Source: Gordonia mangrovi (GTDB lineage Bacteria > Actinomycetota > Actinomycetes > Mycobacteriales > Mycobacteriaceae). From it: DNA of 64,000 nt. Where the stretch lies: positions 3,038,001 to 3,102,000 of the forward strand of contig NZ_CP102850.1 of NCBI RefSeq assembly GCF_024734075.1. Direction: 5' to 3'. This document shows, one piece after another, positions 47,817 through 60,803 of the stretch. The notes beneath the pieces are model-generated. The model worked only from the letters and a program-made list of their open reading frames with translations, searched no databases and was not told the origin of the DNA. A program made the translations under genes and the position numbers. Within the stretch, counting starts at the first letter, position 1. The number at the start of each line of letters is the position of its first letter.

Positions 47817-49112
47817 ATGAGCAACGTCGGAAAGCCCCGCACCGCCGCGGAGATCCAGCAGGACTGGGACAGCAACCCGCGCTGGAACAACGTCAAGCGT
47901 GATTACACCGCCGAGCAGGTCGCCCAGCTCCAGGGTTCGGTCGTGGAAGAGCACACCCTCGCCCGTCGCGGCGCCGAGATCCTCTGGGACGGCGTCACCA
48001 AGGGTGACGGCAGCTACATCAACGCACTCGGTGCGCTGACCGGTAACCAGGCCGTGCAGCAGGTCCGTGCGGGCCTCAAGGCCGTGTACCTGTCCGGGTG
48101 GCAGGTCGCCGGTGACGCCAACCTCTCCGGCCACACCTACCCCGACCAGTCGCTCTACCCGGCCAACTCGGTGCCGAGCGTCGTGCGCCGCATCAACAAC
48201 GCGCTGCTGCGCGCCGACGAGATCGCCCGCGTCGAGGGCGACGACTCGGTGGACAACTGGGTCGTGCCGATCGTCGCCGACGGTGAGGCCGGCTTCGGTG
48301 GCGCCCTCAACGTCTACGAGCTGCAGAAGGCCATGATCGCCGCGGGTGCCGCCGGCACCCACTGGGAGGACCAGCTCGCCTCGGAGAAGAAGTGCGGTCA
48401 CCTCGGTGGCAAGGTGCTCATCCCGACCCAGCAGCACGTCCGCACCCTGAACTCGGCGCGTCTGGCCGCCGACGTCGCGGGCACCCCGACCGTCGTCATT
48501 GCCCGCACCGACGCCGAGGCCGCCACCCTCATCACCTCCGATGTGGATGAGCGCGACCGTGAGTTCATCACCGGTGAGCGCACCGCCGAGGGCTACTACC
48601 ACGTCAAGAACGGCATCGAGCCGTGCATCGCGCGTGCCAAGTCGTATGCCCCGTACGCCGACATGATCTGGATGGAGACCGGCACCCCGGACCTCGAGCT
48701 GGCTCGCAAGTTCGCCGAGGCCGTCAAGTCCGAGTACCCCGACCAGCTGCTGTCCTACAACTGCAGCCCGTCGTTCAACTGGAGCAAGCACCTCGACGAC
48801 TCCACCATCGCCAAGTTCCAGAACGAGCTGGGCGCCATGGGCTTCACCTTCCAGTTCATCACGCTGGCCGGCTTCCACTCGCTCAACTACGGCATGTTCG
48901 ATCTGGCCTACGGCTACGCCCGTGAGCAGATGACCGCCTTCGTCGACCTGCAGAACCGTGAGTTCAAGGCCGCCGACGAGCGTGGCTTCACCGCCGTCAA
49001 GCACCAGCGCGAGGTCGGCGCCGGCTACTTCGACAACATCGCCACCACCGTCGACCCCAACACGTCCACCGCGGCGCTGAAGGGCTCGACCGAGGAAGGC
49101 CAGTTCCACTAG
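47817..49112 (+). CDS. aceA: Isocitrate lyase
   Basis: 431 aa, the short form. Catalytic Cys193 in KKCGHLGGK, substrate loops [21 protein letters not shown] and the metal-binding Asp in [12 protein letters not shown] are intact. It splits isocitrate into succinate and glyoxylate, the first step of the glyoxylate shunt, needed on acetate and fatty acids; mycobacterial homologs also cleave 2-methylisocitrate. Malate synthase is not in the window. RamB and CRP/GlxR sites upstream and ramB itself lie nearby. Confidence 0.98.
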
Positions 49113-49151
49113 GAACTGCGCTCCTGGCGAGAAGCATCATCATCTCCAGAT

Positions 49152-49195
49152 GAACCCGGGGTGGGCAGGGTGAACACCTTGCCCGTCCCGGGTTC
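49152..49195. terminator. aceA terminator
   Basis: Stem of about 19 bp with few mismatches (GAACCCGGG at the base, GGGCA/TGCCC inside), 40 bp past the aceA stop and followed by GTCTTCTTC. Confidence 0.65.
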
Positions 49196-49276
49196 GTCTT
49201 CTTCACCGGACATTCTGCGGCGGCACGGCTTTTCGCTGTGCTGCCGAATCAGCGTATCCATACCCGAGGAGTCGAC

Positions 49277-50161
49277 ATGGCAAGCGAGAAGATCTCCCGG
49301 GTCGGTGTCATCGGCGCCGGCCAGATGGGCGGCGGCATCGCGGAGGTCTGTGCGCGCGCCGACGTCGATGTGCTGGTGTACGAGTCGACGCGCGAACTCG
49401 TGGCCGCCGGCCGGACACGCATCCTGCGGTCGCTCGATCGCGGTGTCTCCAGCGGCAAGCTGACCGAGCGCGAGCGTGAGGACGCCGCCGGACGACTGCG
49501 CTTCACCTCCGATCTCGGCGACTTCGCGGACCGGCAACTCGTGTGCGAGGCCGTCATCGAGGACGAACTGGTCAAGACCGAGATCTTTGCCGATCTCGAC
49601 AAGGTGGTCTCCGATCCGCTGGCGGTCCTGGCCTCCAACACCTCGTCGATCCCAATCATGAAGCTGGGTATGGCGACCCAGAACGCCGGCCGCGTCATCG
49701 GTATGCACTTCTTCAATCCAGTGCCGGTGCTCCCGCTGGTCGAGCTCGTCACCACCCTGATGACCTCCGACGACGTCAGTGCCCGAGCGGAGGCCTTTGC
49801 CCACGACGTTCTCGGCAAGCAGGTCGTACGGTCGGCCGACCGCTCCGGATTCGTGGTCAACTCGCTGCTCGTTCCCTACCTGTTGTCGGCAATTCGCATG
49901 GCGGAGAGTGGTTTTGCGACCGCTGAGGACATCGACAAGGCGATGGTGCTCGGCTGTGCCCACCCGATGGGGCCGTTGAAGTTGAGCGATCTCGTCGGCC
50001 TCGACACCGTGAAGGCCATCGCGGACAAGATGTACGAGGAGTTCAAGGAGCCGCTCTACGCGCCGCCGCCGCTTCTGCTGCGGATGGTGGAGGCGGGACG
50101 ACTCGGCAAGAAGGCGGGGCACGGGTTCTATCGCTACGGCGACAGTGGCCTCACCAGGTAG
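49277..50161 (+). CDS. fadB2: 3-hydroxybutyryl-CoA dehydrogenase
   Basis: 294 aa from the ATG at 49277 with GAGGAG five bases upstream. Rossmann motif VGVIGAGQMGGGIAEVC, the CEAVIEDELVKTEIF segment, NTSSIPI substrate loop and catalytic His in GMHFFNPVPVLPLVE, and the C-terminal helical domain KLSDLVGLDTVKAIADKM. It oxidises (S)-3-hydroxybutyryl-CoA to acetoacetyl-CoA with NAD(P). In M. tuberculosis fadB2 (Rv0468) follows icl1 in the same way. Probably a separate transcript because a terminator precedes it. Confidence 0.95.
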   Translation: MASEKISRVGVIGAGQMGGGIAEVCARADVDVLVYESTRELVAAGRTRILRSLDRGVSSGKLTEREREDAAGRLRFTSDLGDFADRQLVCEAVIEDELVKTEIFADLDKVVSDPLAVLASNTSSIPIMKLGMATQNAGRVIGMHFFNPVPVLPLVELVTTLMTSDDVSARAEAFAHDVLGKQVVRSADRSGFVVNSLLVPYLLSAIRMAESGFATAEDIDKAMVLGCAHPMGPLKLSDLVGLDTVKAIADKMYEEFKEPLYAPPPLLLRMVEAGRLGKKAGHGFYRYGDSGLTR

Positions 50162-50224
50162 GTCGGGCCGTCGGACGTCATCCATGTAGACGGCAGATCA
50201 ACGTCACGTGACATCCGCCACCTG

Positions 50225-50266
50225 CGCTAGCACGGTGCTTGCATTTGCTAGCAAGACGTGGATACT
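50225..50266 (+). promoter_or_regulatory. hbhA: hbhA copy 1 promoter with GCTAGCA operator
   Basis: -35 TTGCAT (50239-50244), 16-bp spacer, -10 GATACT (50261-50266). GCTAGCA occurs at 50226-50232 and 50247-50253, 21 bp apart. The block TGCTTGCA...TG(C/T)TAGCA...GATACTGG recurs at 56863-56896 before the XRE-hbhA operon. The leader to the GTG is about 125 bases. Confidence 0.7.
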
Positions 50267-50396
50267 GGGTAGTGGAACCAGACGGATACGTCGAGAACCA
50301 CGGCGTCGTCGGGTGATCTCTGGGGGTGGTCATCCGCGAGAATCGCGACCTGGTGACCACGACTGACCTACCCGCATCACACAGGAGGTGTGAACC

Positions 50397-51122
50397 GTGA
50401 GTGAATCCACACGCACGCTGGCCAATCCCATCTATGCCGCCGTCGGCGCCGGAGACTACGTCGTCACGCAGTTCAATGACATTGTCGCGCAACTGCGCGA
50501 GCGCACCGAGTCCGCGACCGAGAGTGCGCAGACCCGCTTCGAGCAGACCCGCAGCGACGCCCAGACCCGCTTCGAGGAGGCTCGGACCCGCATCAACGCG
50601 CTTCCCGAGGAGCTTCCGGCTGAGATCGAGGAACTCCGTGGCAAGTTGACCTCGGATGAATTGCGCAAGTTCGCCGAGGGCTACCTCGACACCGCCACCG
50701 AGTTCTACAACTCGCTGGCCGAGCGTGGCGAGACGACCGTCGAGCGTCTTCGCCAGCAGCCCGTCGTCCAGGAGAACCTGGGACGTGCCGAGAAGTACTA
50801 CAACGACGCCGTCGACATGACCGAAGATGCCCTCGGTGTGGTCTCCTCGCAGACCCGACTCGTCGGTGAGCGGGCCGCCAAGCTGACCAGCATCGTCAGC
50901 AGCCGCGTCGAAGACGTCGCCGCCGACATCGAAGAGGCCGGCGAGGCCGTCAAGTCCGAAACCGCCGACGTGGCTTCGGAGATCAGCGGCGCGGCCGGCA
51001 CGGTGGAGGGCAAGGCCCGCACCTCGTCGTCGTCGCCGGCGAAGAAGGTGTCGGCAGCCAAGAAGGCTCCGGCCAAGAAGGCGCCCGCCAAGAAGGCTCC
51101 GGCCAAGAAGGCCACCAGCTGA
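50397..51122 (+). CDS. hbhA: HbhA/TadA/MLDS-like Lys-rich protein, copy 1
   Basis: 241 aa, GTG start with AGGAGG eight bases upstream. Residues 25-205 are mostly amphipathic helix/coiled coil (QTRFEQTRSDAQTRFEEART, SDELRKFAEGYLDTATEFYN). The C-terminal tail is Lys/Ala/Pro-rich, with [18 protein letters not shown]. In mycobacteria HbhA binds heparan sulfate through this tail; in Rhodococcus the homologs TadA and MLDS coat lipid droplets. With the fadB2 and aceA genes next to it, a lipid-storage role is plausible. It has a separate paralog at 57464. Confidence 0.92.
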   Translation: MSESTRTLANPIYAAVGAGDYVVTQFNDIVAQLRERTESATESAQTRFEQTRSDAQTRFEEARTRINALPEELPAEIEELRGKLTSDELRKFAEGYLDTATEFYNSLAERGETTVERLRQQPVVQENLGRAEKYYNDAVDMTEDALGVVSSQTRLVGERAAKLTSIVSSRVEDVAADIEEAGEAVKSETADVASEISGAAGTVEGKARTSSSSPAKKVSAAKKAPAKKAPAKKAPAKKATS

Positions 51123-51144
51123 TCTGAGCAGATCGCATACGAAT

Positions 51145-51182
51145 CTCGGTCCCGCTCACCCGATGTGGTGAGCGGGACCGAG
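51145..51182. terminator. hbhA terminator (shared stem type)
   Basis: Perfect 16-bp arms CTCGGTCCCGCTCACC and complement, loop CGATGT, 22 bp after the hbhA stop. The GGTCCCGCT/AGCGGGACC core is the same as in the palindrome at 7227-7260. Confidence 0.75.
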
Positions 51183-51316
51183 TTGTCTGCACGGTCTGCG
51201 GGATATGGCTGCGGTACCGGTGGTCGGTCGAGACGATAATTGTCGGCGCCAACCGCTGTGGCCGCAGCTGGATACGACGTCGGCGGTAAGTGATGCGGTC
51301 GGCATCCGACGGGCCG

Positions 51317-51847
51317 CTACGTGCCGGGCGAGCGAATTGTCAGGACCGCGTGGACCGGCTCGTCTCCGCTTCGGTAGCTGTGCTCGACGTCGCTGCGCCA
51401 CGTGATCGAGTCGCCGGACGCTGCCGTGCTTTCGGCCCCTACCGGGCCGGCGGTGAGTTCGCCCTGCACCACGAGGATGTATTCGGTGACCCCGGGCCCG
51501 TGCGCCGGGGACACCCGGGTGGCGCCTGGCAGCACGGTGAGCCAGACCACCTCGGTGGTCGCCCCGTCGGGATGGTGCTCCACGTGCAGTACGCGCGCGC
51601 GGAGGTGATCGCCGCTGCCTTCGGTCCCGGCCTCCTCGCCCAGCAGCGCCGTCAGTGGTACCCCGAGCGGGCCTGCGATGGCATACAGGGTGTCCAGGGT
51701 GGGATTGCGCCGGCCCGACTCGATCTCCGACAGCGAGCCCTTGCCGATACCCGCACGCCGGGCAAGCTCGGACAGCGACATGCCGCGCTCCGATCGGGTG
51801 GCGGCGATGCGGCTGCCGACGGCGCGGCGGCGTTCGTCGATGGTCAC
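51317..51847 (-). CDS. XRE-cupin regulator
   Basis: 176 aa, GTG start. XRE HTH at residues 10-65 (IAATRSERGMSLSELARRAG, then IGKGSLSEIESGRRNPT). The C-terminal cupin_2 domain (about 100-172) has PAHGPGVTEYILVVQGELTAG and ends HAVLTIRSPGT; it likely binds a small effector. Divergent from benE with CGGAACG repeats in the gap, so it is probably benE's regulator. Confidence 0.9.
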   Translation of the reverse strand: MTIDERRRAVGSRIAATRSERGMSLSELARRAGIGKGSLSEIESGRRNPTLDTLYAIAGPLGVPLTALLGEEAGTEGSGDHLRARVLHVEHHPDGATTEVVWLTVLPGATRVSPAHGPGVTEYILVVQGELTAGPVGAESTAASGDSITWRSDVEHSYRSGDEPVHAVLTIRSPGT

Positions 51848-51865
51848 GGTCGCCTTTCGGGCTGT

Positions 51866-51899
51866 CGTTCCGTGTGCGGAACGTTCTGTTTACGGAACG
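51866..51899. promoter_or_regulatory. CGTTCCG/CGGAACG operator between XRE-cupin and benE
   Basis: CGTTCCG-TGTG-CGGAACG (51866-51883) is a perfect dyad, and a third CGGAACG half-site follows at 51893-51899, 16 bp after the second. It fills the 71-bp divergent gap. Confidence 0.6.
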
Positions 51900-51918
51900 T
51901 CTGCCGTATGGTGCTCGG

Positions 51919-53121
51919 GTGACCATCACAGCACAAAGCGGATTGCGCGAGCCGATCGTCGCCGGCATCGTCACGGCGCTGGTCGGCTTCACCTCGTCAT
52001 TCGCCGTGGTGATCGCGGGCCTGCGGGCGGTGGGTGCGACTCCGGAACAGGCGGCCTCGGGTCTGTTCGCGCTCACCGTGGTGTTCGGGATCGGCATCAT
52101 CGTGCTCAGTGTCCGGTCGCGCGCACCGATCACCCTGGCGTGGTCGACCCCCGGTGCGGCGCTGCTGGTCAGCATGGGTGCGGGCCACGACGCCGGATGG
52201 GCCGCCGCCGTCGGCGCGTTCCTGGTCGTCGGCGGGCTGATCCTGCTGGTCGGGCTGATCCCGGTGCTCGGCGACCTGATCTCTCGTATTCCGACGCCGA
52301 TCGCGCAGGCGATGCTCGGTGGCGTGCTGTTGTCGCTGTGTCTGGCGCCGATGGAGTCGCTGGCCGCCGAGCCACTGCTGACGCTTCCGGTCCTGATCGC
52401 CTGGTTGGTCGCGACGCGGGTGGTGGCCCGGTGGGCGTTGCCGCTGACGCTGCTCACCGCGCTCGTCGTCATCGCGGTGTACGTGTGGGGTCACGGGACC
52501 GAACAGCCGGTGGAGTCGACGTGGCTCCCGTCGCTGTCGTGGACCACCCCACAACTCGATGTCGCGGCGATCGCGGGCATCGCGATCCCGCTGTTCGTGG
52601 TGACGATGGCCTCGCAGAACATCCCGGGGGTCGCAGTGTTGTCGTCGTTCGGCTACGCCACACCGTGGCGGGCGGCGATGACGGTGACCGGAGCCGGTAC
52701 CGCTGTCATTGCGCCGTTCGGTGGGCACGCGATGAACCTCGCCGCGTTGTCGGCGGCGCTCGCGGCCGGGGAGGAGGCCGGACCGGACCGATCTCGTCGG
52801 TGGATCGCCGGGGTCTCCGCCGGGGTGGGTTACCTCGTGCTGGCCGTGCTGTCCGGGGCGTTGGTCACCGTCGCCACCATCGCACCCGGAGGTCTGGTGG
52901 AAGCCGTTGCCGGACTAGCGCTTCTGGGTACCTTCGCGGCCGCGCTGGTGGGCGCGTTCACGGCCGTCGAGACGCGGATACCCGCGGCGCTGACCTTCGT
53001 GGCGGCGGCGTCCGGACTCACCTTCCTCGGCATCGGCGGCGCGTTCTGGGGTTTGGTGATCGGGTTGGTCACCCACGCCGCGCTGCGCGCCACAACCTCT
53101 GCCCCGTCGACCGGGCGCTGA
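51919..53121 (+). CDS. benE: BenE-family benzoate/H+ symporter-like permease
   Basis: 400 aa, GTG start, 11-12 transmembrane helices. Family segments are LVGFTSSFAVVIAGLRAVGA at the N-terminus, ISRIPTPIAQAMLGGVLLSL, the conserved MASQNIPGVAVLSSFGY (Q-N-x-P-G) and APFGGHAMNLAALSAALAAG. BenE imports benzoate; related proteins carry other compounds, and no benzoate catabolic genes are in this window, so the substrate is uncertain. Probably repressed by the divergent XRE-cupin protein. Confidence 0.87.
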   Translation: MTITAQSGLREPIVAGIVTALVGFTSSFAVVIAGLRAVGATPEQAASGLFALTVVFGIGIIVLSVRSRAPITLAWSTPGAALLVSMGAGHDAGWAAAVGAFLVVGGLILLVGLIPVLGDLISRIPTPIAQAMLGGVLLSLCLAPMESLAAEPLLTLPVLIAWLVATRVVARWALPLTLLTALVVIAVYVWGHGTEQPVESTWLPSLSWTTPQLDVAAIAGIAIPLFVVTMASQNIPGVAVLSSFGYATPWRAAMTVTGAGTAVIAPFGGHAMNLAALSAALAAGEEAGPDRSRRWIAGVSAGVGYLVLAVLSGALVTVATIAPGGLVEAVAGLALLGTFAAALVGAFTAVETRIPAALTFVAAASGLTFLGIGGAFWGLVIGLVTHAALRATTSAPSTGR

Positions 53122-53180
53122 TTCTCGTGGCGGAAAACAGCGCCCACTCAACCGGACTCGGTGTGTGATCGGGCGATGTC

Positions 53181-53675
53181 TCACGCGGCCGGGCAGGCCT
53201 CCACGGGGACCATGATCTCGATCGGGTCGCGATCGGCGAAGGTGAAGGTGACGCTGAACGACTGACCGGGCTCGGCGTTTTCGCGGAGACCACGCAGGGT
53301 GGTGGTGAATGCCGGATCGCCGGGGGCGAGGTCCGCGCCGTCGACTCCCGAGTTGATCTCGGACTGCGGTGCGATGGTCTTCGGTCCGGGCGGGGTCATC
53401 TCGGCGGACTCGGCGACATCGGTGGTGATCCCGGTGAACGTCGCGGAGTCGGTGTCGGAGATGTTGGACACGATGTAGCGGAAGCCGGCGTCGTCGCCGA
53501 CCTGCAGGGCGCACAGTCCCTCGACGTTTTGCGGTGTGATGAAGGCGTTCTCGATGCTCACCGGGTCGGTTTCCGATCCGGAACCGCGATTGGGCGAACC
53601 CCCTTCGGGGTCGGTGGTGCATGCGACAGCGAGGAGGGCCACGCCGCCGATCAGAGTGATGGCTCGTGTTCTCAT
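53181..53675 (-). CDS. LpqE-like lipoprotein (PCuAC-type fold)
   Basis: 164 aa from the ATG at 53675. Signal peptide with lipobox LLAVAC. The mature part resembles the PCu(A)C/LpqE fold: SIENAFITPQNVEG, YIVSNISDTDSATFTGITTD and a C-terminal LRENAEPGQSFSVTFTFADR then MVPVE. The copper ligands of true PCu(A)C (Met/His pattern H-M...M...H-x-M) are not present, so copper binding is not supported. Converges with benE. Confidence 0.72.
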   Translation of the reverse strand: MRTRAITLIGGVALLAVACTTDPEGGSPNRGSGSETDPVSIENAFITPQNVEGLCALQVGDDAGFRYIVSNISDTDSATFTGITTDVAESAEMTPPGPKTIAPQSEINSGVDGADLAPGDPAFTTTLRGLRENAEPGQSFSVTFTFADRDPIEIMVPVEACPAA

Positions 53676-53850
53676 GTCGCCGACGGTAGGTGGTGCGGCG
53701 CAGGATAGGAGCACGGGGCGATAACGATTCGATGACGGTGAGAGACTCGGTCGCCGCTCCATGTGGCGGGTGGCATAGGCGGCCGATCGACCGAAAAGAG
53801 CGTCCGGTCAACGGAAAACCGTGCCCAGGCAACGAGGCTGGGAAGGGCCG

Positions 53851-54642
53851 TCAGAGCGCGGCGGGTGGGAACAGTGGTCCGCCACCGAACGCGGTCCGAT
53901 GCGACTCGGGTGGCGTGCCGTCGCTGTTCGCCAGCCCGTAACCGGCGCCGAGTTCGGCGGTGATCAGCGTGTGGCCGTTGAACTCGTCGAGCCGGGGGTC
54001 GTCGGCAAGGGTGGCGATGACCCGGCCGACGAACTCCGGGTCCTCGGCGCGGTGCAGGGAAAAACCGGCGAACTCGTCGACCCCGAGTGACAGCAACAGT
54101 TCGGTGCGGATCAACCCGAGCCACAACGACACCGCCGTCACCCCGGTGCCGGCCAGTTCGTGCCCCATGTCGAAGGCCATCTTGTCCAGGGCTGCTTTGC
54201 TCATCCCGTACAACACCGAATGCAGATGCCCGCGCGAGCCGAACGACGATATCGATGCGATCAAACCGCTGCCGCGATCCACCATCATCTGCGCCGCATG
54301 AACCGAGGCGACATAGTGTGCGCGCAGCCCGACGCCGACGAGGGAGTCCCAGTCGTCGACCGGGCGTTCCCAGAACTTGTCGGCGAAACCGCCGAACCCG
54401 CGTGGCGCCGCCCACGCATTGTTGACCAGCAGATCGAGGCTGTCGGTGTCGCGTTCGATCTGCGTGAAGACGTCCGCGACGGCCTCGTCGTCGGTGTGGT
54501 CACAGACCAGCGCGATGGCACCGTCGGGGCCGGTCCCGTGTCGCGACGTCACATAGACGGTCCAGCCGGCCGACACCAGCGCCGTCGCGACACCGTGTCC
54601 CACTCCGCGACTGCCGCCGGTGACCAACGCGGTCGAACTCAT
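53851..54642 (-). CDS. Short-chain dehydrogenase/reductase
   Basis: 263 aa from the ATG at 54642, overlapping the TetR stop by four bases. Cofactor loop TGGSRGVGHG, the structural NNAW motif in LLVNNAWAAPRG, catalytic Ser in ISSFGSRG and the Tyr-x3-Lys pair in YGMSKAALDKMAFD. The glycine loop lacks the classical spacing of the cP subfamily, so NADPH versus NADH is undecided. It acts with its TetR partner gene in a two-gene unit; substrate unknown. Confidence 0.9.
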   Translation of the reverse strand: MSSTALVTGGSRGVGHGVATALVSAGWTVYVTSRHGTGPDGAIALVCDHTDDEAVADVFTQIERDTDSLDLLVNNAWAAPRGFGGFADKFWERPVDDWDSLVGVGLRAHYVASVHAAQMMVDRGSGLIASISSFGSRGHLHSVLYGMSKAALDKMAFDMGHELAGTGVTAVSLWLGLIRTELLLSLGVDEFAGFSLHRAEDPEFVGRVIATLADDPRLDEFNGHTLITAELGAGYGLANSDGTPPESHRTAFGGGPLFPPAAL

Positions 54643-55466
54643 CGGCCTTCCTCGGTCGAGCCGCCGGCCGGGTGTCCGGTGTGCGCAGGTGTGTGATCGG
54701 CCACCTCGGGCAGCGGCGGCGGGTGGGCGATGAACGCCTCGCGGGAACCGTTGACCGCGGCGATGCCCACGATGGTGCTCCACGAGAGCATCGTGAGGTA
54801 GTCGATCAGGTCGTCGACCGGCATGGAGCGGTCGGTCATCCACCAGTCGACGGCGCGCTGGATCGCGCCGACCAACGCGTTGGACCACACCTCGGCGCCC
54901 GAGGTGTCGGCGTCGCGTTCGGTCATCCGGATGACCAGCACGTTGGTCATCAACTGGGCAACCAACTTCTCCGAATCCGCGGTCGCGACCGACGACGGCG
55001 CACCGGTCAGCGCGAATTTGTACAGATTCGGTTCGTCGGCGACCGCCGTCACGTAGACCCCGACGACCGTGCGGGTCAGCGTGTACTCGTCCACATCGTC
55101 GGTGATCGCCTCGGTGAGCCGCGGCAGGAGGGTGGACTCGAAGAACCGTACGGCGGTCGCGACCGCGAGGTCGTTCTTGTCGGAGAAGTAGCGATAGAGC
55201 ACGGTCTTGGACACCCCGATGTGCGCGGCGATCTCGTCCATGCCGATGTCGGCGCCCAGCTCACGAACGGCGCGGATCGTGCCGTCGGTGAGTTCGGATC
55301 GGCGGGCCACCTTGTGCTTCTCCCACCGCTGCCGCCGCCCGTCCGGCTTGTCGCCGGAGTCGGTGACGGTGTTCAGCAAGGCGTGCTCCAGACCCCGGGT
55401 CACGTTCGCGGCGGCAGCCACGGCGGCGCGGGCGGCCGCTGCCGGACTCGAACGGTTGGGCGTCAC
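54639..55466 (-). CDS. TetR-family regulator
   Basis: 275 aa, GTG start. A long basic N-terminus (about 60 residues, Ala-rich) precedes the HTH at about 75-100 (GMDEIAAHIGVSKTVLYRYF, SDKNDL). The C-terminal domain (VRFFESTLLPRLTEAITDDV and onward) would bind the effector. It is divergent from the DUF445 gene, the position of Rv0472c next to Rv0473, and overlaps the SDR gene, so it could control both. Confidence 0.88.
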   Translation of the reverse strand: MTPNRSSPAAAARAAVAAAANVTRGLEHALLNTVTDSGDKPDGRRQRWEKHKVARRSELTDGTIRAVRELGADIGMDEIAAHIGVSKTVLYRYFSDKNDLAVATAVRFFESTLLPRLTEAITDDVDEYTLTRTVVGVYVTAVADEPNLYKFALTGAPSSVATADSEKLVAQLMTNVLVIRMTERDADTSGAEVWSNALVGAIQRAVDWWMTDRSMPVDDLIDYLTMLSWSTIVGIAAVNGSREAFIAHPPPLPEVADHTPAHTGHPAGGSTEEGR

Positions 55467-55503
55467 CTGGCCAGCCTAGTGGGTGGCAGGTAAAACTGGT
55501 TCA

Positions 55504-56856
55504 ATGCCGCCCACAGTCATTTCGGACGTCTCGGGTACCCCTGATCGTCCACCCGAGGCGGAGCCACCGCGGCCCGCCCTCGGCTTCGGAGCCGACGGGC
55601 CGGGGGACGCCGCGCGCCGCCGCGACCTGCGTCGGATGAAGGTCGTGGCCACCGGATTCCTGCTGTTCGCGGCAGTGGTCTATCTGTTCACCCGCTACCT
55701 CGAGCACCGTGACGGGACCGATGTCGCCGGTTGGGTCGGCTACGTCCGGGCCGCGTCGGAGGCCGGCATGGTCGGTGCCCTGGCCGACTGGTTCGCGGTC
55801 ACCGCACTCTTCAAACATCCGCTCGGTCTGCCGATTCCGCACACCGCGCTGATCCGCAAGAAGAAGGACGACATCGGCGATCAGCTCGGCGGGTTCATCG
55901 AAGAGAACTTCATGACCCCGGAGGTGATCGAGCACCGGGCGCGCAACCTGGACCTGCCCCGACGGTTGTCCACGTGGCTGGCCGACCCCGTGAACGCACC
56001 ACGGGTGTCCGACGAGGCGGCCCGCCTGATCGCGCTGGCCGCGGAGATGCTGCGCGACGAGGACATCGAGAAGCTCATCGAGCACGCGATCACGTGGGCC
56101 GGAGAGCCGGAATGGGCGCAACCGCTCGGGCGGGTGCTGGAGCAACTGATCGCCGAGGACCGCCTGGAACCGGTCTTCCAGCTCGCCTGCGACCGGGCAC
56201 ACGACTGGGCACTGGGCAGCCAGGACCTCATCGACCGGGTCGTCGACCAAGACGTCGGACCGTCGTGGAAACCGAAGTTCGTGAACGTGCTCCTTGGCGA
56301 CCGCATCTACCGCGAACTCGTCGACTTCACCTACAAGGTGAAGGTCGATCCGCAGCATCAACTGCGCCGGTCCATGCACACCTTCGTCGATCAGTTCGCC
56401 GATGATCTCCAGCACGACCCGGACACCATCGCCCGGTTCGAGAAGATCAAGCAGGAACTGATCGGGCGCGACGAGGTCTCCGACGCCGCGTCGACCGCGT
56501 GGAAGACCGGCAAGGCCGTGATCGAACAGATGCTCACCGACCCCAACAGCACGCTGCGCAACTCGCTGTCGAACGCCACGATCGAGTTGGCGATCCGCAT
56601 CCGCGACGACCGGCCGCTGCAGGAGAAGATGAACGGCTGGGTGATCCGTGCCGCACGCCACATCGCGGAGAACTACTCCCAGGAGATCATCTCGGTGATC
56701 ACCGAGACCGTGCGCGGCTGGGACGCCGACGACACCAGCCGCAAGATCGAACTGCAGGTCGGACGCGATCTGCAGTTCATCCGGATCAACGGCACCGTGG
56801 TGGGTGCACTCGCCGGTCTCGTCATCTACACCGTGTCGGTGCTCATTTTCGGCTGA
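55504..56856 (+). CDS. DUF445 membrane protein
   Basis: 450 aa from the ATG at 55504; a GTG at 55483 is an alternative and neither has a clear ribosome site. There is one N-terminal transmembrane helix (VVATGFLLFAAVVYLFTRYL), the DUF445 signature GMVGALADWFAVTALFKHPL and PHTALIRKKKDDIGDQLGGF, a long coiled helical region, and a final transmembrane helix (GTVVGALAGLVIYTVSVLIF). The counterpart by position is Rv0473. Function not established; it precedes the XRE-hbhA operon. Confidence 0.87.
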   Translation: MPPTVISDVSGTPDRPPEAEPPRPALGFGADGPGDAARRRDLRRMKVVATGFLLFAAVVYLFTRYLEHRDGTDVAGWVGYVRAASEAGMVGALADWFAVTALFKHPLGLPIPHTALIRKKKDDIGDQLGGFIEENFMTPEVIEHRARNLDLPRRLSTWLADPVNAPRVSDEAARLIALAAEMLRDEDIEKLIEHAITWAGEPEWAQPLGRVLEQLIAEDRLEPVFQLACDRAHDWALGSQDLIDRVVDQDVGPSWKPKFVNVLLGDRIYRELVDFTYKVKVDPQHQLRRSMHTFVDQFADDLQHDPDTIARFEKIKQELIGRDEVSDAASTAWKTGKAVIEQMLTDPNSTLRNSLSNATIELAIRIRDDRPLQEKMNGWVIRAARHIAENYSQEIISVITETVRGWDADDTSRKIELQVGRDLQFIRINGTVVGALAGLVIYTVSVLIFG

Positions 56857-56862
56857 GCCGTC

Positions 56863-56896
56863 TGCTTGCACGTGTTAGCACACCCGCAGATACTGG
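56863..56896 (+). promoter_or_regulatory. XRE-hbhA operon promoter with TAGCA motif
   Basis: -35 TTGCAC (56866-56871), 17-bp spacer, -10 GATACT (56889-56894), leader about 21 bases. TGCTTGCA, GTTAGCA and GATACTGG match the hbhA copy 1 promoter in the same order. Confidence 0.7.
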
Positions 56897-56921
56897 TGAG
56901 CAGGATCGACACGGGAGAGTG

Positions 56922-57461
56922 ATGGAGCCGGACGACAACGAGGTGCCCGAACCCGTCGAGCCCGTCGACGGTGAAGGTGACGTCCAGGCGCCCGCCGAGC
57001 ACCCCGGCGACGAGGACCCCGGCGACGAGCACCCCGGCGACGAGGACACCGACGGCGGGGCGAGTGGTCCGGTGGAGACCGTCGAAGCGGTGGCGACCGC
57101 CGCCCAGGACGCGGTGGCAACGGCCGCGCAGGACATCGGTGGCTTCATCCGGACGCAGCGGATGGCCGCCGAGGTGTCGTTGCGGCAGCTCGCCGAACGC
57201 GCGGGTGTCTCCAACCCGTACCTGAGCCAGATCGAACGAGGCCTGCGCAAGCCGTCGGCCGATGTGCTCGCCCAGATCGCGAAAGGGCTGCGGCTGTCCG
57301 CAGAGGTGCTCTATGTGCGCGCGGGCATCCTGGAGGAACGACCGGCAAGCCCGGTGCGTGACGCACTCCTCGCCGACGACTCGATCAGTGAACGCCAGAA
57401 ACAGATGCTGCTCGAGATCTACGAGTCGTTTCGGAAAGAGAACACCGACGTCAAGGAGTGA
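56922..57461 (+). CDS. XRE regulator of the MLDSR/Rv0474 type
   Basis: 179 aa from the ATG at 56922, with GGGAG upstream. The first 70 residues are acidic and Pro/Gly-rich with four HPGDED-like repeats, then an Ala-rich helix ([16 protein letters not shown]). The HTH is at about residues 75-130 ([20 protein letters not shown]). In Rhodococcus jostii the homolog MLDSR regulates the lipid-droplet gene mlds and links droplets to DNA; in M. tuberculosis Rv0474 precedes hbhA. Here it likewise precedes hbhA by 2 bp. Confidence 0.9.
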
Positions 57462-57463
57462 AC

Positions 57464-58360
57464 ATGCCCGAGAATCCCTTGAACACGGTCATCGCGCAGG
57501 TGACCGCGTTGCTCACCGATCTGCGTGAACGCAGCGAGGCCGCCGGGGAGGAGGCGCAGAAACGTCTCGGCGAGGCCCAGTCCCGCGCGCAGAACCGCGT
57601 GGACGAAACCCGGGATTCGGCACTGACGGTGTTCGAGGACGCCAAGAACCGGCTGTCCTCGTTGCCGGTGGAAGTGCCCACCGAGATCGACGACCTGCTG
57701 ACCCGCTTCAGCCCCGACGAATTGCGCAAGGTGGCCGAGGCGTATCTGGCGGTGGCGGCCGGTCTGCTGACGGCGCTGTCGGAGCGCGGCGAGGAAGTCG
57801 TCGAGCGACTGAAGTCCCAGCCGATGGTCGAGGAGAACCTGCCCCGGCTGGAGAAGGTGTACAACGACGCGCTCGGTCTCACCGAAGACGCACTGGGCAC
57901 CATCTCGACCCAGACGCGTGCGGTCGGGGAACGCGCGGCCACCATGGCGGGCCTGACCTCCGGCAGCACCGACGAGGTGACTCTCGACGAGTCCGGCGCC
58001 GCGTCTGCAGCGACGGCTCCCGCCAAGAAAGCCCCGGCGAAGAAGGCTGCGGCGAAGAAGGCATCCGCGAAGAAGGCTGCGGCGAAGAAGTCGCCCGCGA
58101 AGAAGGCCGAGGCGAAAGAGGCCACGCCAAAGAAGGCTCCGGCGAAGAAAGCACCCGCGAAGAAGGCCGCGGCAAAGAAAGCCCCGGCGAAGAAGGCACC
58201 CGCCAAGAAGGCACCCACGAAGAAGGCCGAGTCCGTACAGGAGCCGGTGAAGAAGGCGGTGGCGAAGAAGGCGGCGAAGAAGGCGGCCACCACCGCACCC
58301 GCAAAGAAGGCCCCGGCGAAGAAGACCCCGCCGCAGCGGATGACCCCCGACGAGGTCTGA
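57464..58360 (+). CDS. hbhA: HbhA/TadA/MLDS-like Lys-rich protein, copy 2
   Basis: 298 aa from the ATG at 57464, with AAGGAG inside the end of the regulator gene. Residues 8-180 are helical ([40 protein letters not shown]) and share the DELRK...AE pattern with copy 1. The C-terminal 110 residues repeat KKA with A, P, S and E; this tail is much longer than in copy 1. The synteny Rv0474-Rv0475-Rv0476 identifies it as the hbhA ortholog; adhesion or lipid-droplet role by family. Confidence 0.93.
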
Positions 58361-58400
58361 CCCCGGACGAACTTACGAACAGCACCACTAAGCTGGTGTC

Positions 58401-58712
58401 GTGGACCTGTTGAGTGTGATGGCCTACGGGCAGAACCTGATCTTGCTGCTGCTGACCCTGGCGGCCGGTGTCGCCGCGGCGGTGGCGTTGCTCCACGCCG
58501 CCCTCCAACGCAAGGACGCGTTCCCGGCGGTCGACCGGCAGAGCAAGGTGATCTGGGTGTCGATTCTGGCTGCGGCGACCCTGTTCATCTGGTTGTTCGG
58601 TGCGGTCAACTTCCTCGGCATCATCGGTGTGGTGGCGATGCTCGTCTACCTGGTCGATGTCCGACCGCGCGTTGACGACATCCAGGGCAAGCGCTGGTTC
58701 AGCAAGCGGTAG
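58401..58712 (+). CDS. DUF2516 small membrane protein
   Basis: 103 aa, GTG start. Two or three transmembrane helices (GQNLILLLLTLAAGVAAAVA, VIWVSILAAATLFIWLFG, LGIIGVVAMLVYLVDVRP), ending with basic residues. It is the third gene of the XRE-hbhA-DUF2516 operon, as Rv0476 in M. tuberculosis. Function unknown; the constant neighbourhood suggests a membrane partner of the HbhA protein. Confidence 0.85.
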   Translation: MDLLSVMAYGQNLILLLLTLAAGVAAAVALLHAALQRKDAFPAVDRQSKVIWVSILAAATLFIWLFGAVNFLGIIGVVAMLVYLVDVRPRVDDIQGKRWFSKR

Positions 58713-58772
58713 TGACCCGCCCGGTCCGGCCGGGTGGTGAGGCGACATGACTCAGGGCAATAGACTGGCGAG

Positions 58773-59597
58773 GTGGCCGAGTACCGGATCAACGACCTGG
58801 CAGAGGCGTCAGGTGTCAGCGTGCGCAACATTCGCGTCTATCAGGACCGCGGGCTGTTGCCGTCGCCGACGATCCGCGGCCGCACCGGTTGGTACTCCGA
58901 CGAACATCTGGTCCGGCTCAATCTGATCTCCCGCATGCTCGAACGCGGGTACACCTTCGCCACCATCAGTGAGTTGTTGCACGCCGCGCACTACGGGATG
59001 CGGGTCGAACAAGTGCTGCGCGGGGCCCCCAGGGGCGGTCGCTTCCGCAACTTCAAGCGGGCGGCCACGATCACCATCACCGAGCTGCGCAAGACGTTGA
59101 ACGCGACCGACCGCTCCATCGCGCTCAGTCAGAAGTTGGGTCTGCTGGTCAAGGACGGCGCGCACTACGCGATCCGCAATCCGGAACTGCTCGAAGGGGC
59201 CGAGACCCTCGTCAAGGCCGGGATCGACATCGACCTGCTGCTCGACCGCTGGGTGCGGGTGCAGGACGATCTCGAGGACGTCGCCAAGAGCTTCGTGTCG
59301 ATCATCACCGACAAGTACTTCGACGAGAACCTGCCCGACCTGGGCGAGGAACAGGTCAGCAAGATGGCCGAACTCATCCAGACCGTCCGCCCGATGGCCC
59401 ACGACATCGTCGAATCGACGTTCCGCAAAGCCCTCGACCAGCAGATCTCCGCGGCCATCGGGGAGGCCAGCACCTACTTCGACGCGACCGCGCCGAGTTC
59501 CGATGAGGGCTCGGACGCCGGTGTCGATGCCGGGGTGCGTGAGCCGACGGCCGACGGGGCACAGGCACCACGAGACGTCGGTGACCGGGTGGACTGA
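58773..59597 (+). CDS. MerR-family regulator
   Basis: 274 aa, GTG start. MerR winged helix at residues 1-70: YRINDLAEASGVSVRNIRVY, QDRGLLPSPTIRGRTGWYSD. The effector part (about 90-235) has TITITELRKTLNATDRSIAL and a helical region with KYFDENLPDLGEEQVSKMAE; no Cys or metal motif, so a small-molecule or protein ligand is more likely. It is the sole gene of its strand segment until the alpha/beta hydrolase. Target unknown. Confidence 0.88.
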   Translation: MAEYRINDLAEASGVSVRNIRVYQDRGLLPSPTIRGRTGWYSDEHLVRLNLISRMLERGYTFATISELLHAAHYGMRVEQVLRGAPRGGRFRNFKRAATITITELRKTLNATDRSIALSQKLGLLVKDGAHYAIRNPELLEGAETLVKAGIDIDLLLDRWVRVQDDLEDVAKSFVSIITDKYFDENLPDLGEEQVSKMAELIQTVRPMAHDIVESTFRKALDQQISAAIGEASTYFDATAPSSDEGSDAGVDAGVREPTADGAQAPRDVGDRVD

Positions 59598-59630
59598 GCG
59601 CCACGCGGACTGCACGTGGTGATGGCTGCC

Positions 59631-59678
59631 GGGGAACCGAACCACAGGGGATCCGAACCACAGGGGAACCGAACCACA
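59631..59678. repeat. Three tandem 16-bp repeats
   Basis: Unit GGGGAACCGAACCACA at 59631-59646, 59647-59662 (one change: ATCC for AACC) and 59663-59678. They end 9 bp before the hydrolase start and a fourth unit begins (GGGGGAACG) where the ribosome site should be. Confidence 0.8.
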
Positions 59679-59687
59679 GGGGGAACG

Positions 59688-60803
59688 ATGAGCAAGAAGG
59701 CAACGACGATCCGGTCGAGACGAAAGCGCGCGCTCGCGATCGCGGCCGGCGCGGTCGCCGCCGTGGGCGTGGGTGTCCTGGCCGCGGGGGTGGGCACCAT
59801 AATCGCCGGGATGCTGCGCGATGCATTCCGCGCGCAGCGGGCCGTCGACGACGGCCCGGACGATCTGCTCGGCGTCCCGTCGGACCCGCCGCGCCGGATG
59901 ACGGTCGAGACGACCGGCGGCGCGCGGCTCAACGTCGAATGGTACGGCCCCGACGACACCGATCACGACGTCGTGGTGATGGTGCACGGCTGGACCTGCA
60001 ACACCGCCTACTGGTATCCGCAGATCAATCACCTCGCCGGGCACCGGCCCGTCGTCGCCTACGACCAGCGCGGTCACGGCAAGAGTGAACTCGGCCGGGT
60101 GCGGCCGACCGTCGCCATGTTGGGTCAGGACCTGAACCGGGTGCTCGACGCGGTGGTTCCCGCCGGCCGACGAGCGATCCTCGTCGGACACAGCATGGGC
60201 GGCATGACGATCATGTCGTGGGCGGCCCAGAACGCCGACGAGGTGTCGTCGCGGGTGTCGTCGGTGGTGTTGACCTCCACTGCCGCCACAGCGGTCCTGC
60301 AGAACCATCTGCTCATCCCGGTGGGGCTGCCCCGCTACACCAAACCGTTCGAAGCGACCGTCGGCAAGCTCGTCACGTCGACGCCGATCCCGGTCCCGCA
60401 TATCGACGGCGCCACCTGGCTGTCGCACTACATCGCGCTGGGTTCGCAGGCACGCAAGGCACACGTCGACTTCGTCGACAACATGATCACGGCGTGCCCG
60501 CCGCGTTCGCGGGCCGGCTGGGGCTCGGCGATGGGCAAACTCGACGTCACCGCCGGGCTCGACGCCCTGCGTGTGCCGACAACCGTCGTGGTCGGCACCG
60601 AGGACCGGCTCACTCCGCCGGCACATGCCGAGCAGATGGCAGAGGTGTTGCGGCGCAACGGTGCGCTGCGTGACCTGGTCATCATGGAGAACGTCGGCCA
60701 CATGGCGAGCATCGAGGCGGACGTGCGCTACAACGAACTGCTCGACGAGGTGCTGGCCGAGACCGCACGCCCCGAACCGGCCGGGTCTACAGCTCGCAGT
60801 TGA
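59688..60803 (+). CDS. Alpha/beta hydrolase, membrane-anchored
   Basis: 371 aa from the ATG at 59688, with GGGGGAAC upstream. A basic N-terminus and one transmembrane helix (LAIAAGAVAAVGVGVLAAGV) anchor it. The fold shows the oxyanion loop MVHGWTCNTAYWYPQ, DQRGHGKSE, nucleophile Ser in VGHSMGGMTIM, Asp in GTEDRLTPPAHA and His in VGHMASI. Esterase, lipase or haloperoxidase-type chemistry is possible. It converges with murB, overlapping its last 17 bases. Confidence 0.88.
   Translation: MSKKATTIRSRRKRALAIAAGAVAAVGVGVLAAGVGTIIAGMLRDAFRAQRAVDDGPDDLLGVPSDPPRRMTVETTGGARLNVEWYGPDDTDHDVVVMVHGWTCNTAYWYPQINHLAGHRPVVAYDQRGHGKSELGRVRPTVAMLGQDLNRVLDAVVPAGRRAILVGHSMGGMTIMSWAAQNADEVSSRVSSVVLTSTAATAVLQNHLLIPVGLPRYTKPFEATVGKLVTSTPIPVPHIDGATWLSHYIALGSQARKAHVDFVDNMITACPPRSRAGWGSAMGKLDVTAGLDALRVPTTVVVGTEDRLTPPAHAEQMAEVLRRNGALRDLVIMENVGHMASIEADVRYNELLDEVLAETARPEPAGSTARS

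Follow-up and report, generated by a model that had tools for sequence, protein, structure and literature searches.

The stretch of DNA analyzed here (the window, 64,000 nucleotides) comes from the 5.39 Mb, single-contig genome of Gordonia mangrovi and contains two genes of the hbhA type, one of them next to a gene for a regulator of the XRE family; the element under study is a short box, similar to the operator of the lipid-droplet regulator MLDSR of Rhodococcus, that lies upstream of both loci. An isocitrate lyase gene (at 47817) and a gene for a fadB2-like 3-hydroxyacyl-CoA dehydrogenase (at 49238) are followed by a stand-alone hbhA (hbhA1), and 4.4 kb past it come a DUF445 gene (55483), the XRE gene, an operonic hbhA (hbhA2) and a DUF2516 gene (Table 1). 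The stop codon of the XRE gene is separated by 2 bp from the ATG of hbhA2 and DUF2516 comes next, so the three genes are presumably co-transcribed. No further hbhA match was found in the window genome at E <= 0.001. As neither hbhA protein reaches the curated cut-off of any Pfam or NCBIfam model, both were named for their resemblance to the gene found directly after MLDSR in relatives; the hbhA1 protein shares 51% identity with the operonic hbhA/MLDS protein of Rhodococcus jostii.

A shared box upstream of the two hbhA loci

An earlier note on this stretch had described one ordered motif before the stand-alone hbhA (50236-50268) and before the XRE-hbhA-DUF2516 operon (56863-56896), and a re-reading of the letters bears this out. 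At site A, TGCTTGCA (50236-50243) is followed by tt, TGCTAGCA (50246-50253), 7 nt and GATACTGG (50261-50268), and at site B, 6,627 bp away, TGCTTGCA (56863-56870) is followed by cg, TGTTAGCA (56873-56880), 8 nt and GATACTGG (56889-56896). The extra GCTAGCA that the note had placed at site A (50226-50232), 21 bp from the inner one, is present as well and lies within a third half-site (CGCTAGCA), the three half-sites starting at 50225, 50236 and 50246, in steps of 11 and 10 bp.

Table 1. Features of the two hbhA loci and related sites (positions in the window unless a genome and contig are given).
Feature	Position	Strand	Basis
Site A, third (upstream) half-site CGCTAGCA	50225..50232	+	11 bp upstream of TGCTTGCA
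Site A, MLDSR-type box TGCTTGCA-tt-TGCTAGCA before stand-alone hbhA	50236..50253	+	motif and conservation
Site A, -35-like TTGCAT	50239-50244	+	sequence reading, inside box
Site A, -10-like GATACT	50261..50266	+	16 bp after -35-like hexamer
Stand-alone hbhA (hbhA1)	50397..51122	+	canonical HbhA/MLDS form, YAAVGAGD motif, KKAPAKK tail
Site B, MLDSR-type box TGCTTGCA-cg-TGTTAGCA before XRE operon	56863..56880	+	motif and conservation
Site B, -35-like TTGCAC	56866-56871	+	sequence reading, inside box
Site B, -10-like GATACT	56889..56894	+	17 bp after -35-like hexamer
XRE regulator, MLDSR/Rv0474-type	56922..57461	+	HTH_3 domain, similarity to MLDSR orthologue
Operonic hbhA (hbhA2)	57464..58360	+	divergent paralogue without AVGAGD motif, long KKA-rich tail
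DUF2516 gene, last of the operon	58401..58712	+	domain match
Third exact core of the window genome, before fadE5	G000:C1:2906047-2906062, outside window	-	exact core scan
XRE paralogues near fadE5	G046:C1:1102307, G049:C2:316189, G056:C1:4056936		

When up to three mismatches were allowed, four matches to the full motif (sites A and B, both strands) were found in the window against 0.27 expected, a number reached in 0 of 100 shuffles. Across the genome the full motif (TGCTTGCA-N2-TGYTAGCA plus GATACTGG) matches exactly at sites A and B and nowhere else; the remaining matches are the reverse reading of site A, with two mismatches, and others that all have three. The core alone (GCTTGCNNNNGYTAGC) has three exact genome matches, at site A, at site B and before fadE5, where Markov models of order 1-3, trained on the window, predict 0.07-0.36. 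Based on the shuffles, the genome-wide rarity and the Markov expectations, a chance origin of the shared motif was rejected. A general promoter motif was also rejected, since the exact core occurs only one to four times per genome among 59 Gordonia genomes.

Because the first half-site contains TTGCAN at 16 bp (site A) or 17 bp (site B) from GATACT, an operator at this position would overlap the -35 element of a sigma-A-like promoter. This layout is supported by a -10-like TANNNT located 25 bp from the core start in the XRE promoters of 74/80 named relatives (the set is defined below), and gatact is the majority reading at the -10 place across 52 stand-alone hbhA promoters. The element GATACTGG, which the note had counted as part of the shared motif and which is indeed present at both sites, is best read as a -10 element outside the operator.

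The XRE protein carries an HTH_3 domain (E 2.1e-13) and is 77% identical over 110 aa to Rhodococcus opacus P0042, an MLDSR orthologue in which one antibody peptide of the MLDSR paper recurs unchanged and the other differs at one place (peptides: PMC5504291). Judged by its sequence, the window XRE is an MLDSR orthologue, and its assignment to the Rv0474/MLDSR type in the note holds. In R. jostii RHA1, the MLDSR box was defined as GNT(T/A)GCTNNTGCTANC (Zhang et al. 2017, PMC5504291), which the Gordonia motif nearly equals: site A differs from the printed consensus only at position 7, and site B at positions 7 and 12. The same paper reports binding of MLDSR to its box by electrophoretic mobility shift assay and surface plasmon resonance, repression in vitro at high dose and activation at low dose, lowered MLDS in cells both upon deletion and upon overexpression of MLDSR, and sequestration of MLDSR by lipid droplets (PMC5504291).

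The R. jostii locus that we compared is that of the type strain NBRC 16295, not of RHA1. Like Gordonia, R. jostii has an orthologous XRE gene in the order XRE-hbhA/MLDS-DUF2516 (ro02105-ro02104 in RHA1; PMC5504291). Upstream of MLDSR in the type strain lies TGCTAACA-gag-TGCTTGCAATTGCTAGCA. Counted from the start of MLDSR, its core is at -59 (58 in the window XRE), and a third upstream half-site has the 11/10-bp phasing of site A; the type-strain box also differs from the printed consensus at one position. The organisms also differ. A single exact core occurs in the 9.7 Mb of the type strain, but three in the window genome, one of them before the stand-alone canonical hbhA and one before fadE5, and the operonic hbhA of the window is divergent.

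Conservation of the box and the two forms of hbhA

Conservation was followed in the 59 Gordonia genomes, in a named set (the best 80 of 118 relatives, from Rhodococcus, Nocardia, Williamsia, Mycolicibacter, Hoyosella, Tomitella, Skermania and others) and in an order-level set of 40 loci, drawn from a further genus of the family as well as from various families of the order. The core precedes the XRE gene in 59/59 Gordonia genomes (58 exact, one with one mismatch), in 80/80 named loci (77 exact, three with one mismatch), six Mycolicibacter loci carrying it as Gordonia does, and in 37/40 order-level loci (28 exact, eight with one and one with two mismatches). At least one exact core was found in 33/42 order-level genomes. 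Two of the 42 genomes (G060 and G069) lack both an exact core and an XRE orthologue, their best match to XRE being at about E 5e-6, and three genomes of one genus in another family (G071, G084 and G093) have the XRE gene without a box. In these three, an exact core lies 65-68 bp before a stand-alone hbhA-like gene, whose proteins score 47, 45 and 39 bits with a hidden Markov model of canonical HbhA (five sequences searched, E 5e-16 to 2e-13). The helix-turn-helix (HTH) letters of the XRE regulators are very similar across the order, in step with the conserved box.

A stand-alone hbhA was found in 52/59 Gordonia genomes (48 in the locus, four on other stretches), and all 52 copies carry the box within 420 bp upstream of their matched part (43 exact, nine with one mismatch). 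The lack of conservation that the note had named as a refutation was therefore looked for and not seen: the motif is conserved before XRE across the order and before every stand-alone Gordonia copy. The seven genomes without the stand-alone gene require one change on the DUF445 tree, and the 20/59 without the operonic gene require at least two; at least two losses of the operonic hbhA thus occurred in lineages that retained the stand-alone copy with its box, and none of the 59 genomes lacks both forms. No second hbhA match occurs in any of the 80 named loci, even where fadB2 is in the locus, in contrast to the two hbhA genes of Gordonia.

Both genes carry the putative operator, as the note had supposed for its two hbhA-type genes, but they differ in kind, the canonical form being that of the stand-alone gene. 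An N-terminal AVGAGD region and a KKA-rich tail are the defining features of HbhA/MLDS/TadA proteins and occur in most operonic homologues. In the window, the stand-alone protein has both, and the operonic protein has the tail but lacks AVGAGD. VGAGD was present in 48/48 stand-alone Gordonia proteins read and in 20/23 operonic proteins from other genera, but in 0/39 Gordonia operonic proteins. A tree was built from 24 stand-alone proteins, 22 of the 39 operonic ones of Gordonia and 23 operonic ones from elsewhere; it places the stand-alone proteins in one group (support 92/89), with the two Williamsia proteins next to it at weak support (84/38), and the Gordonia operonic proteins in a 100/100 clade on a longer branch within the Gordonia/Williamsia set. 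The third half-site (GCTAGC, GCTAAC or GCTTGC) is exact in 34/52 stand-alone hbhA, 40/80 named XRE and 6/59 Gordonia XRE promoters, and within one mismatch in 47/52, 43/80 and 22/59, respectively. From the VGAGD counts, the tree and the half-site counts, it is outside the operon that Gordonia combines the canonical gene with the most complete form of the operator. R. opacus TadA and mycobacterial HBHA are lipid-body proteins, as described and cited in PMC10699116. The Gordonia stand-alone protein resembles them in the N-terminal motif and KKA-rich tail of the operonic relatives, and differs in that its gene lies outside the regulator operon with an operator of its own.

A joint copying of promoter, regulator and hbhA would be expected to leave a remnant of the XRE gene in the leader of the window stand-alone hbhA, where only chance matches of 7-8 bp were found. 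An RNA element in this long leader was rejected, as no Rfam match was obtained within 49000-59000 of the window and the folding energy of the leader was not unusual in 14 relatives compared with letter shuffles (z -1.46 to 0.9). Between the two hbhA loci lie a cupin-XRE regulator gene (51317-51847, minus strand) and a gene that we judged by eye to encode a membrane transporter (51655-53121, plus strand). The distance between the loci ranges from about 2.4 to 12.8 kb in relatives having both on one stretch.

Other genes preceded by the core

The 59 Gordonia genomes hold 134 exact cores, of which 58 lie before XRE, 43 before the stand-alone hbhA, 20 before fadE5, eight before an rpf-like transglycosylase gene and five elsewhere, so that 129 of the 134 precede one of these four genes. 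The fadE5 gene was named because its product matches chains in solved structures of FadE5 and related acyl-CoA dehydrogenases; in the window genome its core (CGCTTGCTCTGGTTAGCG) is at about -150, 132 kb outside the window. Within 350 bp upstream of fadE5, a core with at most one mismatch was found in 30/59 Gordonia genomes (20 exact), compared with 0.31% in letter shuffles. The rpf-like gene has an exact core in 8/59 genomes (L321-L327 and L151), the window genome not among them, about 130-140 bp upstream and, in one case, 100 bp from the first possible start. The rpf-like loci that could be read (29 of 30 fetched) comprised four with an exact core, three with one, one with two and 21 with three or more mismatches.

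No box was found before the alpha/beta-hydrolase gene of the window (59616-60803, downstream of the operon), although its orthologue is preceded by an exact GCTTGCNNNNGYWAGC within 420 bp in 10 of the 72 named loci (of 80) that could be examined: Nocardia (4 of 5), Antrihabitans (3), Skermania (1), Smaragdicoccus (1) and a Nocardiaceae metagenome-assembled genome (1). Two mismatches were found in three of the other loci and three or four in the rest. The boxed loci are L253, L257, L258, L259, L260, L262, L266, L272, L309 and L310, and three Nocardia have two boxed copies. When 17 named genomes were scanned whole, the core was located only at XRE in 11 of them, including R. jostii and R. koreensis.

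Two further genes preceded by an exact core are a glpD-like one, in two genomes that belong to a single family of the order (G098 and G077; L331 and L388), and a ferritin-like one, just below the Pfam cut-off, in three genomes from a different family (G075, G096 and G087; L340, L342 and L389). A palindromic variant of the box, with GCTAGC as its first half, was seen in two Gordonia only (G049 and G013; L147 and L155), before an alpha/beta-hydrolase/SDR fusion gene that we take to be EphD-like.

A putative MLDSR-type regulon

We consider it probable that the XRE protein is an MLDSR-type autoregulator that binds both hbhA promoters and the fadE5 core; its titration by lipid droplets would then alter the two hbhA transcripts and that of fadE5. 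In this mechanism, the protein would bind the near-palindromic GCTTGC-N4-GYTAGC over the -35 elements of two sigma-A-like promoters, those of its own operon (XRE, the divergent hbhA and DUF2516) and of the stand-alone canonical hbhA 6.6 kb upstream, and would also bind the core about 150 bp before fadE5. By analogy with R. jostii, binding to all three sites is likely, and the dose-dependent repression and activation and the droplet sequestration shown there (PMC5504291) would apply to the Gordonia protein; an increase of the lipid store would then change the hbhA1, hbhA2 and fadE5 transcripts. The note had proposed a regulon of two promoters. Both promoters do carry the conserved box, and the putative regulon extends further, in the window genome to fadE5. 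Its targets are probably a few lipid genes that vary with the lineage, not its own operon alone. The best-supported reading is an autoregulator that in Gordonia also controls the relocated canonical hbhA and, in about half of the species, the one of the window included, fadE5.

Several observations weigh against this reading. At position 7 the printed consensus has T, and the window box and that of the R. jostii type strain have A, leaving site A off at one and site B at two of the fixed consensus positions (PMC5504291). The fadE5 core is missing in 29/59 Gordonia genomes, a distribution that needs at least six state changes on the tree, and where present it lies about 130-250 bp from the start codon and lacks a -10 at the usual spacing; as the core is found in half of Gordonia only and the usual -10 is missing, the action of the box at fadE5 may differ. 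The three genomes with a box-less XRE gene indicate that autoregulation is not universal. In addition, 7 of the 40 order-level genomes with an XRE orthologue also have no exact core, their boxes being mismatched or missing, and for this reason the genomes without XRE are a weak control. As to the rarity of the core, one control points the other way: the reversed pattern is commoner than the core itself in the 59 Gordonia genomes (264 vs 134); it was not used as a null because of its different, CpG-rich base make-up.

In the main alternative, the boxes would be true operators, yet at the stand-alone hbhA, fadE5 and rpf-like sites they would be used by another HTH protein, an XRE paralogue or another lipid regulator; we regard this as unlikely. 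Several Gordonia genomes do have a second XRE-like gene of about 40-46% identity, paralogues of 40-44% identity lie 2.4-6.5 kb from fadE5 in three of them (Table 1), and the fadE5 and rpf boxes mostly have C/G, not T/A, just outside the core. However, the window genome carries all three boxes while the next XRE match listed there reaches only E = 1.7e-8, the core consensus at all targets equals that before the XRE gene itself, and the HTH letters of the regulators vary very little across the order, in step with the box. Less probable still, and in our view very doubtful, is that the two promoters are copies of one strong constitutive sigma-A promoter derived from a gene duplication, their shared letters being promoter elements and no operator. 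The hbhA genes are indeed paralogues, the box contains the -35-like TTGCAN and GATACT is a good -10, but letters outside the -35 and -10, located in both half-sites and at helical spacing, are conserved from Gordonia to other families of the order while the -10 sequence varies; fadE5 is preceded by the core but has no -10 at the corresponding distance, and MLDSR binds the equivalent site in R. jostii (PMC5504291).

The gene order Rv0474-Rv0475 (hbhA)-Rv0476 of Mycobacterium tuberculosis is presumably the counterpart of this operon, Rv0474 being, we assume, a regulator of the same type. Rv0474 is reported to be autorepressing (PMC10961391, PMC10884836); its reported copper response, with rpoB as a target, has no part in the model proposed here (PMC10961391, PMC10884836). 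It is also reported to be raised during resuscitation (PMC10961391), which would fit the rpf link only loosely.

More tentatively, and with somewhat less than even confidence, we propose that a regulon of the lipid store, open to expansion, is built around MLDSR as its single, droplet-titrated regulator. The operator would have been copied or created in each lineage before genes of storage, mobilization and wake-up, and the amount of droplet surface would be read out as their transcription. In Gordonia the targets would be the droplet coat (stand-alone hbhA), beta-oxidation (fadE5) and the rpf-like gene, and in other lineages a putative lipase/esterase (Nocardia, Antrihabitans, Skermania and Smaragdicoccus) and, in another family, the glpD-like gene. 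The MLDSR operator itself is already known; a wider reach was not found in the open-licence literature searched, where the MLDSR work found describes one regulator acting on its own operon. With one to four exact cores per genome, the near-unique box makes the target list of the regulator directly testable. Should the reading hold, lipid droplets of bacteria would influence not only their own coat protein but also beta-oxidation, by way of a regulator that they titrate. The case also shows an operator, conserved across the order, that remains with its target gene once that gene has left the operon.

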